NCBI GenBank assembly: GCA_003598085.1
Contig: QZKU01000074.1
Span: 1-11,072, forward strand
Source of the DNA: Candidatus Abyssobacteria bacterium SURF_5
Lineage (GTDB): Bacteria > Abyssobacteria > SURF-5
Reading direction: 5' to 3'
Length of the DNA: 11,072 nt
A program made the position numbers and the translations under genes. Under the pieces are notes generated by a model, which did no database searches, was not told the DNA's origin, and was given only the letters and a program-made list of their open reading frames with translations. This document shows, one piece after another, positions 1,240-10,786 of this stretch. The stretch's first letter is position 1; each line of letters starts with the position of its first letter.

Positions 1240-1860
1240 TCAAGAGAAAGCAAGCTCCTTCAAAGCAAAGCTAAGTATGCCTGCCAACAAACCGTAAATG
1301 GTGCTGCGTTCGCGAAAAAATGCCTCGCGCCATTCCCGACCAAACAACTTGTTCAGCTTCGGAAGAGGAATCCAGCGAGACGTTTCGGCGGCATATCTTG
1401 CATACTCATCCCCGAACCGCCGTTTGAGCAGGTCCTCTTCATAGATAACGATGAAGGAATAGAAGACAAAGCAGATGGACAGCGCCATGGGAACGAACCA
1501 GAGCATTTCCGATAGCACGCAGAATCCGGCGAGGGTCAGGTGGTTCCCTACGTAGAGCGGGTTTCTTATGAACGCATAGGGGCCGGAAACCACCAATCGG
1601 CGTGCTTTGTCTTTCCGCGTGCGGGCGCTTCGCCCGATATGCCGCATCGCCCATAATCGCAAAGCCTCGCCGGCGCATATGATTGCCGGTCCCGTCGTCC
1701 ATACGACAAGGTCGTTCTCGTATTCCGAAAAAAACGCGCAGAGCAGGAACAGAAAGATGGGCGTCGCAATAAAATTGCGCGACCTGAAGAGAAATCGCCC
1801 GATCCTGACAGCGGCTTTCTTCCCGGCGTAGTCACCCGCAGAAATAAGACGTTCCGTCAT
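1240..1860 (-). CDS. Isoprenylcysteine carboxyl methyltransferase / PEMT-like membrane methyltransferase
   Basis: This is a small integral membrane methyltransferase of the ICMT/phospholipid N-methyltransferase superfamily, which would transfer a methyl group from S-adenosylmethionine to a lipid-like substrate. The signature region is clear: GPYAFIRNPLYVGN at residues 93-106 (the SAM-binding G-P-Y...R-N-P-x-Y motif). It is followed after two hydrophobic helices (about 108-140) by EEDLLKRRFGDEYARYA at 141-157. Further hydrophobic segments lie at about 30-45, 55-70 and 188-202. Length (206 residues) is normal. It starts at ATG 1860, with GGGAGG at 1871-1876 about 10 bases upstream. It begins 23 bases after the stop of the GT39 gene and is probably the last gene of that operon. 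The substrate cannot be read from sequence. Its place suggests an envelope lipid or polyprenyl compound, but that is inference, since such genes occur in many contexts. Confidence 0.85.
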   Translation of the reverse strand: MTERLISAGDYAGKKAAVRIGRFLFRSRNFIATPIFLFLLCAFFSEYENDLVVWTTGPAIICAGEALRLWAMRHIGRSARTRKDKARRLVVSGPYAFIRNPLYVGNHLTLAGFCVLSEMLWFVPMALSICFVFYSFIVIYEEDLLKRRFGDEYARYAAETSRWIPLPKLNKLFGREWREAFFRERSTIYGLLAGILSFALKELAFS

Positions 1861-1883: not shown

Positions 1884-3566
1884 TCATCGCCACAGTGCCA
1901 GGCACACCATCTCTCTACTGCCGATTTTCGCTTGCGCAATTGTCTCAAGCTTGCACTGAACGTCCCGGATGAGAGAATCCTGCTCCCGCGCCTGCAGGAT
2001 CACAAGCAGTCTGTCTGTAGTTTCGAGCGCCTGACGCAACCCCCCTTCGGTATCGACCCTCGGAATAGTTCGATTCATATAAAAATGTATATTGGGACGA
2101 TAGGTGCGGTAAAAGGCTATGCTATCGCTCTTGCCCGAGGCAGCCAGCACGTCGCTGCAAAACGGACGGGCGGACATGAAGTCGTCGGCCACCGGCGAAA
2201 GATGTCCGTATACATAGACGACCGCCAGAACGGTCGTCGCGATTACGCAAGCCAGCGCGGTCTTTGGAGGGCGGTCGCGACATACCAGACTTGCCGTGAC
2301 AAGGATTGCCCAGAAAACGGCAACCGGTGGAACTGCAGAGATGATTGATCTGTTCGCGTGGTGATAGACATAAAGAACAATCACGGCGACGCCCGCACCG
2401 GAAACCAGAGCCGCGAGCGCCAAGGGAATGGAAAACGCCTTTCGCTCCCTCAGCCGCCCTTCACCGGGATTCGCATTAACCAGTGTCCATCCCAGAATCA
2501 GCCCTCCCGCCGGGAGCAGCGGCATCAGATATTGGCTTCTTTTCCCGGAGACAAAAGTGAAAAACAGAAAGACAGTCAAAAACCAAACCAGAATGAATCG
2601 AAGCCCTCCATTCGTACGCAGGTATCCGTTCTTTTTGAGGCGGTATGCGGCAAGTGGTAAAAATACCGACCAAGGGAAAAACTGCCACCATATCTCTCCG
2701 AGATAATAATGCCAGGGGCGTTGATGAGAATAGGATTCAATCATGCGCCCCAACGTTTGTTTCGTGAGAATGGAAAGTGAGGCATACGCTCCGCCGCTCC
2801 TCTGATAAGCCGAAAACCACCACGGCGCCACCATCGCGGCGACCAGAAGCAGACCGAATGCCGCCGCTCCAATAAACCACCAGATTTGTTTCCTTGCAGG
2901 CACGCCCCGAAACAGAATCTCTACAACTAAAAACACGAGCATGACAAGCGGCGGAATCGCGAATCCCACGGGTCCCTTGGTCAGAACGGCAGGCGTGATA
3001 AAGAGGAAACCGGCCAGGTAAAGGGCCGGCTTACTCTTTGCATAACCCACATAAAAGAGGGAAAGCGAGGCGAGAATGCTTAGGGCGAGGAGTGCGTCGA
3101 GCGCGCCTTCTCGCGCATTCACAAAAAATTGAGCGCTCGTTGCAGTGATGAGCGCTCCCCAAAAAGCTTCGTCCCGACCCATCAGCCCGCGTCCGAGGAA
3201 ATAAGTGAGCAGAACGATAAGAGTGGCCGCCGTCGCCGACGGTATGCGAGCGGTGCTCTCCGTCACCTCGCCGCCAAGTTTCGAAAGGAGCGCCACAAGC
3301 CAGAAGTAGAGCGGCGGTTTCTCCGGATACACCTCTCCATTGAGGTGCGGGACAATCCATTCACCGGTCACGAGCATTTCCCTCGCAACTTGGGCGTATC
3401 TCGGCTCATCAGGGCTCCACAGAGAGCGGGCGCCTATGCCATAAAAGAAGAGGAAATATGCGGCCAAGAGTAGCGCAGCCACTTCGTTTGCCGTCCGAGA
3501 TTTTGAATTCATTTCCGCATGCCCGGCGCCGGCGGGGCCTATGTGCTGAGCGAAATATGATTTCAA
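1884..3566 (-). CDS. GT39 family polyprenyl-phosphate-sugar glycosyltransferase, ArnT-like
   Basis: This multi-pass membrane transferase would move a sugar from a polyprenyl-phosphate carrier to an acceptor on the periplasmic face. The N-terminal family motif is intact: WSPDEPRYAQVAREM at residues 50-64, carrying the D53-E54 catalytic region, then the PEKPPLYFW loop at 81-89. LTKGPVGF (195-202) and the GKRSQYLMPLLPA loop (341-353) match the ArnT/PMT architecture. About a dozen hydrophobic segments run through residues 30-455, followed by a roughly 100-residue soluble tail, as in ArnT. At 560 residues it is close to ArnT (about 550). The called start is TTG 3566, overlapping the upstream stop as TTGA with GGAG about 8 bases ahead. 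The alternative is ATG 3512 (residue 19), which has a weak ribosome site. The donor sugar and the acceptor (lipid A, other glycan or protein) are not determined. No arnA, arnB or arnD neighbour is present, so aminoarabinose is not assumed. Confidence 0.9.
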   Translation of the reverse strand: MKSYFAQHIGPAGAGHAEMNSKSRTANEVAALLLAAYFLFFYGIGARSLWSPDEPRYAQVAREMLVTGEWIVPHLNGEVYPEKPPLYFWLVALLSKLGGEVTESTARIPSATAATLIVLLTYFLGRGLMGRDEAFWGALITATSAQFFVNAREGALDALLALSILASLSLFYVGYAKSKPALYLAGFLFITPAVLTKGPVGFAIPPLVMLVFLVVEILFRGVPARKQIWWFIGAAAFGLLLVAAMVAPWWFSAYQRSGGAYASLSILTKQTLGRMIESYSHQRPWHYYLGEIWWQFFPWSVFLPLAAYRLKKNGYLRTNGGLRFILVWFLTVFLFFTFVSGKRSQYLMPLLPAGGLILGWTLVNANPGEGRLRERKAFSIPLALAALVSGAGVAVIVLYVYHHANRSIISAVPPVAVFWAILVTASLVCRDRPPKTALACVIATTVLAVVYVYGHLSPVADDFMSARPFCSDVLAASGKSDSIAFYRTYRPNIHFYMNRTIPRVDTEGGLRQALETTDRLLVILQAREQDSLIRDVQCKLETIAQAKIGSREMVCLALWR

Positions 3567-3838
3567 GAGTGCTTCTCCAGCGATGGTTTCGACCTAAAAA
3601 TCAACATCAAATTGCGAATGTAGATGAAAGCGCCAAAGCTTTGGCCCAGAATGAAAACCGGGTCGCGCCGATAAACGGCGTATGCGAGAAGTATTGAACT
3701 TCCCAGCAAGCTGATATGCCAGAAGGCGACCGGGATAACGCTTTTTCCACAACGTTCGGAAGCCACCCATTGGACCAGAAACCGCAGTGAAAAGACTATT
3801 TGGCCGACAAAGCCGATGATTAACCACGCCCGCGTCAT
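3563..3838 (-). CDS. LAB_N (lipid-A-disaccharide synthase N-terminal domain) small membrane protein
   Basis: This 91-residue protein is almost entirely one LAB_N domain. The family pattern reads FSLRFLVQWVASER, then a K-x-V-I-P-x-x-F-W segment, then LLAYAVYRRDPVFILGQ and a GAFIYIRNLMLI end. Three hydrophobic helices are visible at about residues 3-25, 36-55 and 61-82. The start is ATG 3838, because GAGGAGG lies 4 bases upstream and the ATG overlaps the GT2 stop as ATGA. A longer frame up to 3883 would run inside the GT2 gene. The domain is named for its fusion to LpxB in some bacteria, but as a free-standing protein it recurs between GT2 and GT39 genes. It therefore sits where the ArnE/ArnF flippase subunits would be. 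A role in presenting or flipping the lipid-linked sugar is inference. It has no visible catalytic motif. Confidence 0.88.
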   Translation of the reverse strand: MTRAWLIIGFVGQIVFSLRFLVQWVASERCGKSVIPVAFWHISLLGSSILLAYAVYRRDPVFILGQSFGAFIYIRNLMLIFRSKPSLEKHS

Positions 3839-4539
3839 CCTTCCTCCTCGATTTCGTATCGGATGTGCCGTCGTTTCATCCACCTGACAGCCAGCAGATC
3901 AATAAAGGCCTTCATGATTCGGTTTCGGATGCCATATTTGGACACGCCCATCCTTCTCTCCCGATGATTTACGGGAACTTCCACAACGCGATAACCTTCC
4001 AACTTCACTAAGGTGGGCAGGAAACGGTGCATGCCTTCAAACAGCTTCAGCTGCTCGACACACTCCCTCTTATAGGCTTTCAGTGAACACCCCACGTCCA
4101 CTATCTGTTCATCGCTGAGCTTGTTTCTGACGGAGTTTGCCACGCGACTGGATATTCTCCTCACAATGCTGTCGCGCCTTTTCCGGCGCCAGCCGCACAC
4201 CACGTCATAGTCCTCGAGTTTCTCCAAAAGCCCGGGGATGTCGGCCGGATCGTTCTGCATGTCGGCGTCGAGCGTCACGAGAATGTTACCCCTGGCACAC
4301 TTGAAACCGGCTGCCATCGCAGATGTCTGTCCGCAATTTTTTCTAAAACCGATGAAGCGGACCTCGTCAAACTCGCCGGCGAGTGAGCGCAAAACCTCGC
4401 GTGTGGCGTCAGTACTCCCGTCATCCACAAACAGAATCTCAAAGTCCTCTCCGAGATCTCGCATTGTTTGAAGAAGTTCGACAGTAAGCGGCCGCAGAGA
4501 TTCGAATTCGTTGTAAGCGGGGATGATAACCGATATCAT
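3835..4539 (-). CDS. GT2 family glycosyltransferase, DPM1/ArnC-like polyprenyl-phosphate glycosyltransferase
   Basis: This cytoplasmic-face enzyme probably attaches a nucleotide-activated sugar to polyprenyl phosphate, making the donor for the GT39 enzyme two genes downstream. Numbered from ATG 4539 (234 residues), it has the GT-A opening ISVIIPAYNE (2-11), FVDDGSTD (37-44) with D39-D40, the nucleotide/metal D-A-D at 91-93 in VTLDADMQNDP, GWRRKRRD (117-123) and the late RRMGVSKYG loop (195-203). It lacks the two C-terminal membrane helices of ArnC and GtrB, so it is closer to soluble DPM1 and may dock through its basic C-terminus (WMKRRHIRYE). An in-frame ATG at 4572 would add 11 residues, but 4539 aligns with the family start. 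The ribosome site is weak (GAGG at 4551-4554). The stop overlaps the LAB_N start, so translation is probably coupled. Confidence 0.92.
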   Translation of the reverse strand: MISVIIPAYNEFESLRPLTVELLQTMRDLGEDFEILFVDDGSTDATREVLRSLAGEFDEVRFIGFRKNCGQTSAMAAGFKCARGNILVTLDADMQNDPADIPGLLEKLEDYDVVCGWRRKRRDSIVRRISSRVANSVRNKLSDEQIVDVGCSLKAYKRECVEQLKLFEGMHRFLPTLVKLEGYRVVEVPVNHRERRMGVSKYGIRNRIMKAFIDLLAVRWMKRRHIRYEIEEEG

Positions 4540-4668
4540 GTTCGCTCTGCCCTCGTTCCGCGTCCCGTGCATATCGAGGATTCGATGACGGATTCAATCG
4601 CCGCATTTTCAGCACTGGCGCCGCGGCTGATTCGCCCCCAACACTCTGATAAGATGGCGTCGCCTTTG

Positions 4669-4674
4669 ATTATA
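4669..4674 (-). promoter_or_regulatory. Candidate -10 element (TATAAT) of the GT2 operon promoter
   Basis: A perfect TATAAT on the minus strand has no acceptable -35 at 16-18 bases (TCTTTC at 17). The -35 position is instead occupied by the tandem repeat at 4686-4703, which suggests an activator-dependent promoter. The predicted start near 4662 gives a leader of roughly 120 bases before ATG 4539. No terminator hairpin is visible after the kinase stop, so readthrough from the two-component genes is also possible. Confidence 0.5.
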
Positions 4675-4685
4675 GGAGGGACAAT

Positions 4686-4703
4686 ATTACGGAAAGATTA
4701 CGG
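4686..4703 (-). promoter_or_regulatory. Tandem direct repeat CCGTAAT-CTTT-CCGTAAT, candidate response-regulator box
   Basis: Two identical 7-mers are spaced by 4 bases, giving an 11-bp period (one helical turn). The proximal copy ends 11 bases upstream of TATAAT. OmpR-family regulators bind as head-to-tail dimers to such repeats. Written as hexamers it is CGTAAT-N5-CGTAAT, one base per half from the known PmrA half-site CTTAAT with N5 spacing. The nearest regulator gene is the OmpR-type one at 6182-6847. Confidence 0.55.
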
Positions 4704-4724: not shown

Positions 4725-6170
4725 TCAGGCCGCGCGTTTCTCAAAGAGAGTGATTGTGAGGATTGCGGGAGCTGTGAGGCGGGCGCTTACGCTCAGGCCG
4801 AGAACCCCGGCCAGCGATTTGACCAGGGATAGGCCCAGGCCGCTGTGGCTGTCGCCGGAGGAGCGGACTTCATCTTTCCGCCAAAACGGCTCGAACATGC
4901 AGCGCAAGTCGTCCTCTGACAGCCCTCGAACACTGTTGGATATGGAAAATGAGAACTCGCCGCCATGATTGCTCGCCACCCACCCGATCTTTCCGTTCTC
5001 GACGGAATGACTGGCGGCGTTCGAAAAGAGATTGTCGAGAATAATCTCCAGAAAATTCCTGTCGGTCACAATCGAAAGATTTTCCGGGACAGCGCCGAAG
5101 CCAATAATCCCACGAGACGCCGCCTCCTTCGCCCGCTTCTCCCAGAGCGACTCGATGAGTGGCCGTAGCTGAATCAAGTCCTTCTGCGGCTTCAATTGGC
5201 CTGCATGACAACGCGCCAATGTGAGCAGGTTCAGCACCGTGTCCTGCATTTCTTTTGCCGACTGAAGAATGTCCTCATAATTCTTCCGCTCACGCTCATT
5301 CAGATCGTCCGCGTATTTCAGGGCCACCTCGGACGCACAGCGTATTTCGCTCACCCGCGTGCGCAGCTCATGCGCCACATTCGAGGTGAATCGGCGCTCG
5401 CGCTCGAACGCGTCTTTGAGATTAGCGATGATGGCGTTCAGCGTTGTGGCGACACTGGCAAATTCCTTGATTTCCGGGACAGTGACCGGCGTCAGGTTCG
5501 CCGAGGAAATCGCCTGCACCTCTCGCTCGAAAACGCGCAGGGGCGCGAGGCCTCGCCAGATGACCACCCAGCCCAGCGCAAGCATGACGGCCAATTCGAT
5601 TGTCAAAAGCGGCGCCGTGATCTCGAGTGTCTCCCGCAGCCGGATGCCGATGTAGCCCTGGCTCAAGCCCGCGATAAAGAGGCATTCGCTTTCACCGGAA
5701 TCCATCGATGAGCCGGCATCACCAGCCGTTTCTATGCGAGCGAACTCGCGTAGCGCGGCGCAGCGTACCTTTTCGCCCTGAATGCGGGCCTTCCAGAAAT
5801 AGGTTTTGCCGCGAGGAAACTCCTGCGGCGACATCGGCAATGACAGGTTCACATCCCTGAGCGATTCCGACCGTGCGATTTCCCTGCTGTCGCTGAGCCG
5901 GAGAATCAGGAAGTAAGCATTGGTGGAGCGGTCCTTCGACTCTCCAATGGATTCTTCGGCCAGATTCAACCCGGTCCCGCCGTCAGGACCAGCCAATCGC
6001 ATGGCGACCAGGCTCGAAACATAGGCATCGACGCTCTTCTCGATCATCTTGACGAGAGAGCGCCGCCCCTTCTCGATGAAAATCAACTCCGTCAGGATGA
6101 AGACAACAACCGCCACAACGAACAGGGACAGCAACAGGCGGTTCTTAAGGCTCCTCGGTTTCAATCCCAT
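4725..6170 (-). CDS. Two-component sensor histidine kinase (QseC/PmrB-like architecture)
   Basis: This inner-membrane sensor kinase would phosphorylate the response regulator encoded just upstream. Membrane segments are at about residues 11-31 and 186-206. They enclose a roughly 150-residue periplasmic sensor region that I do not recognise, and a HAMP linker follows (about 207-255). HisKA contains the phospho-acceptor H267 in FTSNVAHELRTR (261-272). The ATP-binding domain (about 365-478) has its N box at LEIILDNLFSNAASHS (N380, N384), an FEPFWRKDE segment (426-434) and the GLGLSLVKSL glycine box (444-453). The usual D-x-G-x-G box is degenerate, which is normal for kinases carrying the FEPFWRKD variant. 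One oddity: the proline that usually follows HELRT is arginine (R272). The start ATG 6170 has AGAGGA 4 bases upstream and lies 11 bases after the regulator's stop, so the two genes form one operon. Confidence 0.93.
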   Translation of the reverse strand: MGLKPRSLKNRLLLSLFVVAVVVFILTELIFIEKGRRSLVKMIEKSVDAYVSSLVAMRLAGPDGGTGLNLAEESIGESKDRSTNAYFLILRLSDSREIARSESLRDVNLSLPMSPQEFPRGKTYFWKARIQGEKVRCAALREFARIETAGDAGSSMDSGESECLFIAGLSQGYIGIRLRETLEITAPLLTIELAVMLALGWVVIWRGLAPLRVFEREVQAISSANLTPVTVPEIKEFASVATTLNAIIANLKDAFERERRFTSNVAHELRTRVSEIRCASEVALKYADDLNERERKNYEDILQSAKEMQDTVLNLLTLARCHAGQLKPQKDLIQLRPLIESLWEKRAKEAASRGIIGFGAVPENLSIVTDRNFLEIILDNLFSNAASHSVENGKIGWVASNHGGEFSFSISNSVRGLSEDDLRCMFEPFWRKDEVRSSGDSHSGLGLSLVKSLAGVLGLSVSARLTAPAILTITLFEKRAA

Positions 6171-6181
6171 GAAATCCTCTT

Positions 6182-6847
6182 CTACTCAATCAGATATCCT
6201 GCCTTTGACCGGGTCTTGATCAGGGACGGCTCCCCAGCCTCCCCCAGTTTTTTCCTCAGGGACGACACGGCCGCGTCGACCACGTTGCTCATCGGCTCCT
6301 TGCGCTCGTCGTAAATATGTTGTTCAATTTCAGCCCGGCTGACCACTGCGCCGCGCCGCAAGGCGAGCAGTTCGAGAAGATTGTACTCTCGCGGCGGCAG
6401 TTCGATTGATACGCCCCTGCGGCTTACGGTTCGTGTGGCTAGGTCAATCTGCAACTCGCCAATCGAGACGAAATTCTGCTTCACGCCGTATCGTCGGCGG
6501 ATGAGCGCCCTCAACCGGGCAAGAAGCTCTTCGAACGCGAATGGCTTTACCAGATAATCATCCGCTCCCGCCTGCAATCCCTTGACCCTGTCTTCAACCG
6601 TGTCCTTTGCCGAGAGAATCAGCACGCTGGCCGGTCGCTGACTCTCGCGCAGCCGGCGCAACAGCGACAAGCCGTCCAGACCCGGCAGCATCAAATCGAG
6701 AATAATCACGTCGTAATCACAGGATTCGGCGAGCCAGAGACCTTCTTCGCCGTCACCGGTGGCGTCAACTTTGAAGCCCTCTTTCTTCAGCCCGAGAGAA
6801 ACAGACCTTTGAAGCCGTTTCGAATCTTCTACCAGCAGAACTCTCAT
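6182..6847 (-). CDS. OmpR-family response regulator (QseB/PmrA-like)
   Basis: This is a cytoplasmic DNA-binding response regulator. The receiver domain (about 1-118) has the acidic pair E7-D8, phospho-acceptor D51 in IILDLMLPGLDG, S79 and K101 (LVKPFAFEELLARLRAL). The C-terminal winged helix (about 125-221) shows the OmpR pattern LPPREYNLLELLALRRGAVV, then NVVDAAVSSLRKKLG and a final TRSKAGYLIE wing. All phosphorylation residues are present, so it should be a functional switch for the kinase 11 bases downstream. The start ATG 6847 is preceded only by a weak ribosome site (GGGGA, about 12 bases away). The tandem 7-mer upstream of the GT2 operon, and a single copy of the same 7-mer at this gene's own promoter, make those the likely targets. 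That is inference from position and repeat geometry. Confidence 0.95.
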   Translation of the reverse strand: MRVLLVEDSKRLQRSVSLGLKKEGFKVDATGDGEEGLWLAESCDYDVIILDLMLPGLDGLSLLRRLRESQRPASVLILSAKDTVEDRVKGLQAGADDYLVKPFAFEELLARLRALIRRRYGVKQNFVSIGELQIDLATRTVSRRGVSIELPPREYNLLELLALRRGAVVSRAEIEQHIYDERKEPMSNVVDAAVSSLRKKLGEAGEPSLIKTRSKAGYLIE

Positions 6848-6866: not shown

Positions 6867-6900
6867 CCGTAATGATACCAGTCCTAACCGTCGCGGTCAC
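6867..6900 (-). promoter_or_regulatory. Candidate promoter of the two-component operon with one CCGTAAT half-site
   Basis: GTGACC (-35, 6895-6900) and TATCAT (-10, 6872-6877) are separated by exactly 17 bases, with 4 of 6 matches at the -35. The predicted start is about 18 bases before ATG 6847. The 7-mer CCGTAAT occurs once on the plus strand at 6867-6873, next to the -10 and in the opposite orientation to the tandem pair at 4686-4703. It could be an autoregulatory half-site, or chance. Confidence 0.4.
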
Positions 6901-7193: not shown

Positions 7194-7988
7194 TTATGTC
7201 ATCATTCCCTGCAAAACCGCCATGAAGTCGTTGAGCTGGGCCGCATATTCGGGCGAACCGTCCACCGCGACGCAGTTCTTTCCAACCGCCTCGACGAATT
7301 CTACTTCCTTGAGCAGCACCTTCATTGCGCCGTCAACCGTGTTGAACCGGAAATGGACGAACGGCCGGCGCCGCCGGTAGACGCCGCGTCCCGCCTTCGT
7401 CTTGCCAGCCTTCACACGCAGGTAAGCGGCAATCCCTTTCTCTTCCTCATACGGCTCGACCGTGAACTGATAAATGCGGTCCGGCTGTTTGCCAGTCCAC
7501 TCCTTCATGCGCGCGTCGCCAAGCTTGTTGAAAACGCTCAGAGCCGTGGTGATCATGTACAGCGACATCTTCACCTTGAGGTAACGCTTCTGCGCGTCCT
7601 TCGGGCGCGCATTCGGCATCATCAGTTTCAGGCTCATCAGAAGCTTGAACACCTTGAGCAAAAGACGCAGGTTCTTCAGCCCTCCCTTGATCTTGGGAAG
7701 GACCGTTCCGCCGGTCAACATCGTGTTCATCTTCTGGACCGAGGAAAAGTGGAAGGTGATATCGGGGTTCTCGGAAATGCCTTCGGCGGTCGAAAACCGC
7801 CCGCGATCAAAAGTGAGGTAGGCCCCCACTTTCGCACCGCCGTTGTCAGCGGAGAACTGGACTGCTCCCTTCTCGTTCTCGAAGAGCTTCCTCATCTTCT
7901 CGTCATCGACCAATGGTACCTTCATCACCGGGAAAGCGGCTCGAAAAAAAAGCCGGGCTGTCATGATATCCTGTTCAGATGTTCCCAT
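7194..7988 (-). CDS. Protein with two SCP2-like (sterol carrier/lipid-binding) halves
   Basis: This 264-residue soluble protein, with no signal peptide or strong membrane helix, has two segments that each read like an SCP2 fold. Residues about 41-103 contain GAVQFSADNGGAKVGAYLTF, then NPDITFHFSS and a T-G-G...K-I-K-G-G segment. Residues about 172-260 contain YQFTVEP, AAYLRVKAG, FVHFRFNTVDGAMKVLL and a final AVDGSPEYAAQLNDFM segment. A basic, methionine/leucine-rich linker (104-150) joins them. SCP2 domains bind hydrophobic ligands or act in lipid handling. The ligand here is unknown. The start ATG 7988 lies one base after the transketolase C-half stop, with GAGG 6-7 bases upstream. An internal ATG at 7964 also has a good site. 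It is the third gene of the transketolase operon. I recognise the domain pattern but not a named family, so function is open. Confidence 0.7.
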   Translation of the reverse strand: MGTSEQDIMTARLFFRAAFPVMKVPLVDDEKMRKLFENEKGAVQFSADNGGAKVGAYLTFDRGRFSTAEGISENPDITFHFSSVQKMNTMLTGGTVLPKIKGGLKNLRLLLKVFKLLMSLKLMMPNARPKDAQKRYLKVKMSLYMITTALSVFNKLGDARMKEWTGKQPDRIYQFTVEPYEEEKGIAAYLRVKAGKTKAGRGVYRRRRPFVHFRFNTVDGAMKVLLKEVEFVEAVGKNCVAVDGSPEYAAQLNDFMAVLQGMMT

Positions 7989-10111: not shown

Positions 10112-10786
10112 TCAGGCGGAGCGGAAATTGTACATTATGGGGATTTTGAGGTCGGGATTACACGGAGAATTCTTATAGCCCAGATCGGCGGAAATGGTCT
10201 CGGTAACCTTCGAAGAGACCAGCATGAAATTCATCTCCTGGTCGAGACAACTTACCTTCCTCCCCGTTTCAAAGAAAAAATCGAACCCGCGCTTAAAACT
10301 GCCTTCGCCGCGCTCCCACAGGGCCTCGGCCACCTGTTCATACTCAAATGCGCTTACCTCAAGGCCGCGGCGGTCGTGCAGGAAAACCACCCCGAGATCA
10401 ACCGGCTCATCCGAAGCCTGATTCGCAATAACGAGAACATTTGAAAGCGCATCCGCTTCATCAAGATTGAATGCCTCGGCGGCAGGCAAATATCGTTTTC
10501 CCCAAAATGCTTCATTCAACTGCGACCGGGCAACGACCTTATCAAAATAGGCGTCCAGGCAAATAGAGCTTAGCACATTTTTGGAATACTCCAGTTTGGC
10601 GGAACTGACGACGACGTGGCGATAACCCTTGTCGATCATCCTGTTCAGAGCGCGGATGAGATCCTTTCGCAGAACATAGCTGTCCTGCGGGTGAGGAGCT
10701 TTTCCGCCGCCTCGAGCGGATACCAGATTGCGGAAAAATCCGAGCGTTTCATCGAGGTCCCAGCAAATGACTCTCGGCTTTTCCAT
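10112..10786 (-). CDS. HAD-superfamily protein with DxDxT motif (NIF/small phosphatase-like)
   Basis: This cytoplasmic protein (224 residues) opens with the HAD motif I, VICWDLDETLGFF. D10 would be the nucleophile, D12 the general acid/base and T14 the following threonine. Motif II is probably VVVSSA (58-63), and the motif III lysine may be K98 in FWGKRYLPA. The region where motif IV should supply one or two acidic residues for magnesium reads VLVIANQASDEP (117-128): alanine-asparagine stands where D-D or G-D is usual, with D126 a few residues later. It may be a phosphatase with altered metal binding, or a non-catalytic HAD protein. The C-terminal 60 residues match nothing I know. The start ATG 10786 has a GAGGG ribosome site about 6 bases upstream. 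It stands alone, with its own promoter and a possible terminator. Substrate unknown. Confidence 0.75.
   Translation of the reverse strand: MEKPRVICWDLDETLGFFRNLVSARGGGKAPHPQDSYVLRKDLIRALNRMIDKGYRHVVVSSAKLEYSKNVLSSICLDAYFDKVVARSQLNEAFWGKRYLPAAEAFNLDEADALSNVLVIANQASDEPVDLGVVFLHDRRGLEVSAFEYEQVAEALWERGEGSFKRGFDFFFETGRKVSCLDQEMNFMLVSSKVTETISADLGYKNSPCNPDLKIPIMYNFRSA

Follow-up and report, generated by a model that had tools for sequence, protein, structure and literature searches.

We identified a predicted operator for a two-component response regulator (RR) of the OmpR/PhoB family in the window, the whole 11,072-nucleotide stretch of Candidatus Abyssobacteria bacterium SURF_5 DNA that we analyzed. 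With a probability of roughly 0.87, we judge from the sequence, its conservation and fixed spacing, its co-occurrence with the RR, and the nature of the target genes that the element at 4669-4703 is the operator of the adjacent RR and that, together with its -10 hexamer, it constitutes a class II activated promoter driving an operon encoding a family 2 glycosyltransferase (GT2), a LAB_N protein, an ArnT-like protein, and a methyltransferase. The two half-sites, spaced by one helical turn, would be occupied head to tail by a dimer of the phosphorylated RR, which would stand in for the absent -35 and draw RNA polymerase to the promoter through sigma region 4; the envelope-modification operon would be made only while the kinase is active. 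Binding, its dependence on phosphorylation, activation over repression, the signal, and lipid A as the modified product are steps that we infer. The original prediction that the regulator encoded at 6182-6847 binds here is strongly supported by co-occurrence of the element with RR relatives across phyla and by its fixed 11-bp distance from the -10; it is also backed by a blind scan in which the new match again lay beside such an RR, and by recognition helix residues unlike those of sister regulators that have other repeats at their promoters.

In the phyla concerned, gene regulation has hardly been studied by experiment. For one of their two-component systems, this proposal offers an operator that can be tested and a small set of predicted regulon members, and the targets of the regulator thereby become predictable in bacteria that have never been cultured. 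It ties that system to PepSY proteins and to envelope genes of the lipid A type; the paired recognition helices and sites are material for the study of DNA specificity in the OmpR/PhoB family.

The regulator, its presumed kinase, and the downstream operon

On the minus strand, the order is RR, histidine kinase (HK), site, ArnC-like GT2, LAB_N, ArnT-like PMT_2, and PEMT/ICMT methyltransferase. The RR, the proposed site binder (6182..6847; recognition helix SNVVDAAVSSLRKK), belongs to the OmpR/PhoB family, with Pfam Response_reg (PF00072, 100.9 bits) and Trans_reg_C (PF00486, 73.2 bits) both above cut-off. Its presumed partner is a sensor HK (4725..6170) with HisKA and HATPase_c above cut-off and HAMP below. 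The first gene past the site (3835..4572) encodes the ArnC-like GT2 (Pfam Glycos_transf_2); it may start at the ATG at 4539, and its product reached 159.9 bits against the NCBIfam ArnC model, short of the cut-off of 529. Behind it lie the genes for a small LAB_N membrane protein (3563..3883; Pfam PF07578), an ArnT-like PMT_2 glycosyltransferase (1884..3566; Pfam PF13231) that scored 138 bits against an ArnT cut-off of 567 in NCBIfam, and a PEMT/ICMT-type methyltransferase (1240..1860), for which the best NCBIfam model, below cut-off, was LmtA, the Leptospira lipid A 1-phosphate O-methyltransferase. Because these scores are well under the cut-offs, we treat the Arn- and LmtA-type genes as relatives and not as orthologues. 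Two other genes in the window, at 7194-7988 and 10112-10786, had no Pfam match; the product of the latter starts like a HAD-type phosphatase (ICWDLDETLG).

A second GT-LAB_N pair with 75% identity is present in the same genome (G000 contig C110, L168), and the related genus G001 carries a GT-LAB_N-ArnT cluster with 74% identity (contig C75, L156). Directly before each of these clusters is a gene that ends in a shared C-terminal sequence and is probably guaA. Neither a site nor two-component genes were found at L168 or L156, and the RR and HK were not found in G001 and G002 at the thresholds used. The GT-LAB_N copy in the window may be a duplicate or an import that was put under two-component control.

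Layout and rarity of the element

Read on the minus strand (window 4703-4686), the element is CCGTAAT-CTTT-CCGTAAT, followed by 11 bp and then TATAAT (aaaaaaaCCGTAATctttCCGTAATattgtccctccTATAATcaaagg). The 152-bp gap that holds it separates the HK stop at 4725 from the glycosyltransferase ATG at 4572 or 4539, and both genes are on the minus strand. The upstream half-site (4697..4703) has the core CGT[A/C]AT, which is intact in 13 of the 15 sites that we collected, and the downstream half-site (4686..4692), mostly C[C/G]GTAAT in those sites, stands in place of a -35. The -10 hexamer TATAAT (4669..4674) lies 11 bp past the second half-site, and its position alone predicts a transcription start about 7 nt farther on, at 4662. 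The 11-base units CCGTAATCTTT and CCGTAATATTG are identical at 9 of 11 positions, so the likeness extends past the 7-mers. At spacings of 16 to 18 bp from the -10, the best match to TTGACA was 2/6, and a sigma-70 scan called no promoter at the element; we therefore read the promoter as lacking a -35. The repeat, the TATAAT, and the missing -35 were thus all borne out by the minus-strand sequence, the TTGACA match count, and the sigma-70 scan.

The 11-kb window contains three perfect 7+7 repeats with a period of 11, this one and two more at 6703 and 9882, so chance alone could account for the repeat. What makes the element significant is that both the repeat and its distance from the -10 are conserved beside relatives of the regulator. 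In the genome-wide scan proposed with the original prediction, the window copy of CCGTAAT-N4-CCGTAAT was the only exact match in the 5.1-Mb genome (expected about 0.04), and the extended pattern had no second good match there. At up to two mismatches, there were 21 matches versus 14 for the reversed pattern. Two weak matches at two to three mismatches, one of them within a long coding frame, were not above the reversed control and were rejected as further copies. With a single copy in the genome, a one-operon regulon must be assumed.

Autoregulation of the window RR through this site was likewise rejected, since the PWM scored no higher than 0.2 bits anywhere in the RR stretch (L151). A single CCGTAAT at 6867, one of four in the window, points away from the RR. 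The window site would serve the downstream operon only, in contrast to the autoregulation that looks common in relatives. A literature search on the site sequence returned unrelated papers only.

Conservation beside regulator relatives

We took RR relatives from genome contigs and from the phylum of G103, a Hydrogenedentota record, and scanned their loci with the window's own 7-mer pair. An element of the form CGT[A/C]AT-CTTC-C[C/G]GTAAT-N11-TAnnnT adjoins close RR relatives (52 to 64% identity) in Hydrogenedentota, Lindowbacteria, and the phylum of Bacterium BMS3Bbin09, as well as in a further family. It was found in L012, L013, and L114-L118 and in weaker form in L014-L016; nearly all of these copies are followed by a -10 at a distance of eleven bp, and the consensus is CGT[A/C]AT-CTTC-C[C/G]GTAAT-N11-TATaaT. 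Conservation extends to the CTT of the spacer, so the true unit is the 11-mer C[C/G]GT[A/C]AT[C/G]TT[C/T], repeated once. Both the presence of the element beside RR relatives and its spacing are conserved, as expected of an operator.

Permutation tests supported this result. Among 11 RR loci (131 kb), the pattern with at most one mismatch occurred in 5 loci, versus 0.03 on average over 629 reorderings; no reordering reached 5. When TAnnnT was required at N11 and up to two mismatches were allowed, 6 loci matched versus 0.005, and again 0 of 629 reorderings reached that number. Period 11 was represented in 8 loci, and every other period from 8 to 25 in at most 3. A -10 (xAxxxT) lay at exactly N11 in 14 of the 15 collected sites, with other offsets reaching at most 3. 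The 14 include three sites (L186 and both in L132) for which the collecting pattern itself demanded TAnnnT at N11, as well as a few weak sites recognized partly through their N11 -10; the permutation test without the -10 is independent of how the N11 sites were collected. None of the 15 sites has a -35. Leave-one-out PWM analysis placed the site as the top match in 13/13 loci (19 to 37 bits), and in each locus it outscored all of 100 shuffles. Some of the sites that we counted had earlier served to refine the motif, so we regard only the permutation test with the window 7-mers, the later loci, and the G304 match described below as independent support.

One repeat right after the HK in L010/L114 (CCGTAAG-GTTC-CCGTAAC) had no -10 at N11 and was kept outside the 15. 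No strong site was found in the fetched DNA of L011, where the contig stops just upstream, or of L022, L037, L039, L043, L052, and L055, all with RRs near the site-bearing set, which counts against the operator reading.

Genome scans and the genes behind the sites

Across 68 genomes of the Hydrogenedentota phylum, five matches with at most one mismatch were found, in five genomes. All five genomes are among the seven with an RR of at least 57% identity, and the sites adjoin that RR (hypergeometric P of about 2e-6); most of the two-mismatch copies in these genomes were checked for homologues of the window's genes only. When 245 genomes from the BMS3Bbin09 phylum were scanned blind, two exact matches were found, in G099 (Bacterium BMS3Bbin09) and G304, and both adjoin an RR of 59 to 60% identity. 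The one new exact match, in G304, lies between a 59%-identity RR (helix SNVVDSAICNLRR) and opposite-strand genes that include an ArnT-like one. The exact matches in 386 genomes across the domain were the window, the Lindowbacteria locus copy, and one in G490 that falls inside a coding frame and is probably due to chance. All three genomes of the Lindowbacteria record's phylum carry the site at no more than one mismatch, and in the third it precedes a relative of the same PepSY-linked gene.

Glycosyltransferase operons follow the site in L117 and L118, as in the window. In L013 and L014, the site comes before genes for a probably secreted uncharacterized protein and a PepSY protein that head the RR-HK operon, and similar first genes of PepSY-RR-HK operons stand behind it in L015, L016, and L115. 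Autoregulation therefore looks common in the relatives. A PAP2 phosphatase gene follows the site in L012, where a second site has a PepSY-like gene, and in L116 a metallophosphoesterase gene directly after the HK stands behind the site. The probably secreted family heads PepSY-RR-HK operons in L013 (3739-4488), L014 (3589-4539), L115 (9458-10240), and L127 (5033-5788); it has no confident Pfam match, and several members carry PGIG(L/F) near the C terminus.

Recognition helices and sister regulators

We aligned the RR helices to E. coli PmrA/BasR without gaps. In the PmrA-DNA structure, positions 192 and 195 contact bases (PMC4660055). The site-bearing RRs have Ser or Ala at position 192 and Cys or Ser at 195; in the Planctomycetota sisters, position 192 is Val and position 195 mostly Gly. 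Three sisters of the Planctomycetota type carry period-11 repeats of the TTCAT type upstream of their RR operons, in L025 (4875, plus strand), L027 (4876, plus strand; GTTCATCTTCGGTTCAT), and L119 (9801, minus strand), a group based on few loci. Gammaproteobacterial sisters in L020 (4923), L028 (4916), and L038 (4923), all plus strand, carry TTAAG-N6-TTAAT about 80 bp ahead of their RR, with TAnnnT following after ten bp. These repeats resemble the published PmrA box, and the RRs have Val192/Asn196, as in PmrA.

The pairing of helix and repeat parallels the one-base difference between CGTAAT and CTTAAT to which the original prediction had pointed. The match between helix residues and repeat type is a correlation inside one family tree and not a demonstration. 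We tentatively propose, at a little under even odds, that a PmrAB-like envelope/lipid A system of several mostly uncultured phyla has its own operator code (CGT[A/C]AT read with Ser/Ala192 and Cys/Ser195), with sisters that use TTCAT-type repeats in Planctomycetota or PmrA-like TTAAG-N6-TTAAT repeats in Gammaproteobacteria. If true, this would be a natural series for how the recognition helix of the OmpR family reads DNA.

The window RR reads TRSKAGY at the wing, where Ser replaces an Arg that contacts DNA in PmrA (R210) and that every aligned relative keeps, a further point against the proposal. Ser192/Ser195 are also found in a more distant RR (47% identity) in L121.

Alternative readings

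The element might instead be the operator of another OmpR-family RR in the genome and lie beside this one because both occur in envelope gene clusters. Two good divergent sites in G120 (L132, 1535 on the minus strand and 1600 on the plus strand), about 65 bp apart, lie between a PEMT-type gene and a gene for a large putative membrane protein, and no RR of the window kind was found in that genome. In addition, a 23-bit site in L121 (12724, plus strand) is near a PEMT-GT-LAB_N-LAB_N-ArnT cluster with the 47%-identity RR. This reading is improbable given that the five good matches in the 68 genomes all adjoin this RR, that the site heads the RR's own PepSY-RR-HK operon in L013-L016 and L115, that the exact match found blind in G304 adjoins the RR, and that the helix residues differ from those of sisters with other repeats.

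Slightly less probable again is that the RR binds here as a repressor, sitting on the -35 region of a weak promoter and so blocking RNA polymerase. The site does cover the place where a -35 would be, and certain boxes of the OmpR family repress (PMC3335776, PMC2681069). Against this, the lack of a -35 in 15/15 sites means that polymerase would need help, and a directly oriented box phased at a constant N11 has the activating geometry of PhoP architecture I (PMC3335776). A chance repeat beside a chance TATAAT, as three perfect repeats in one window might suggest, is hardly credible and is refuted by the comparative tests, which found repeat and spacing conserved across phyla.

Comparison with known systems

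The best NCBIfam model for the RR was CopR/CzcR/SilR (TIGR01387), and the matching kinase model was the best for the HK. The RR missed the cut-off of that subfamily (221.4 versus 279.2 bits), and its neighborhood, unlike those systems, has no metal-transport genes.

The comparison with PmrA, drawn in the original prediction, holds for the architecture, with hexamers 5 bp apart placed one helical turn from the -10, and fails for the regulator and the half-sites. Published PmrA half-sites are CTTAAG/xTTAAT (PMC3973317), so that the 5-bp separation fits the PmrA box and the sequence CGTAAT does not. The window RR scored 199.9 bits against 330 for the PmrA equivalog model (NCBIfam NF007928), and it differs from PmrA at recognition helix positions 192, 195, and 196. 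The PmrA/BasR box of enterics is similar in that its targets include Arn-type lipid A modification genes.

PhoP half-sites are of the (T/G)GTTTA type, from which the window-type half-site CGT[A/C]AT differs, and the window RR is far under the PhoP cut-off (157 of 336 bits). The likeness to the Salmonella PhoP box is one of layout, a hexameric direct repeat with a 5-bp gap 11 to 12 nt from the -10 (PMC3335776, PMC2681069). In PhoP architecture I, represented by the mgtA, phoP, slyB, pmrD, and yrbL promoters, the directly oriented box precedes the -10 by 12 nt (11 in yrbL) and overlaps the -35, in a class II arrangement (PMC3335776). The same geometry, N11 without a -35, is present in the window and in 14 of the 15 sites. 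Because the window geometry matches this architecture, activation by an RR dimer that touches sigma is the best reading of the element.
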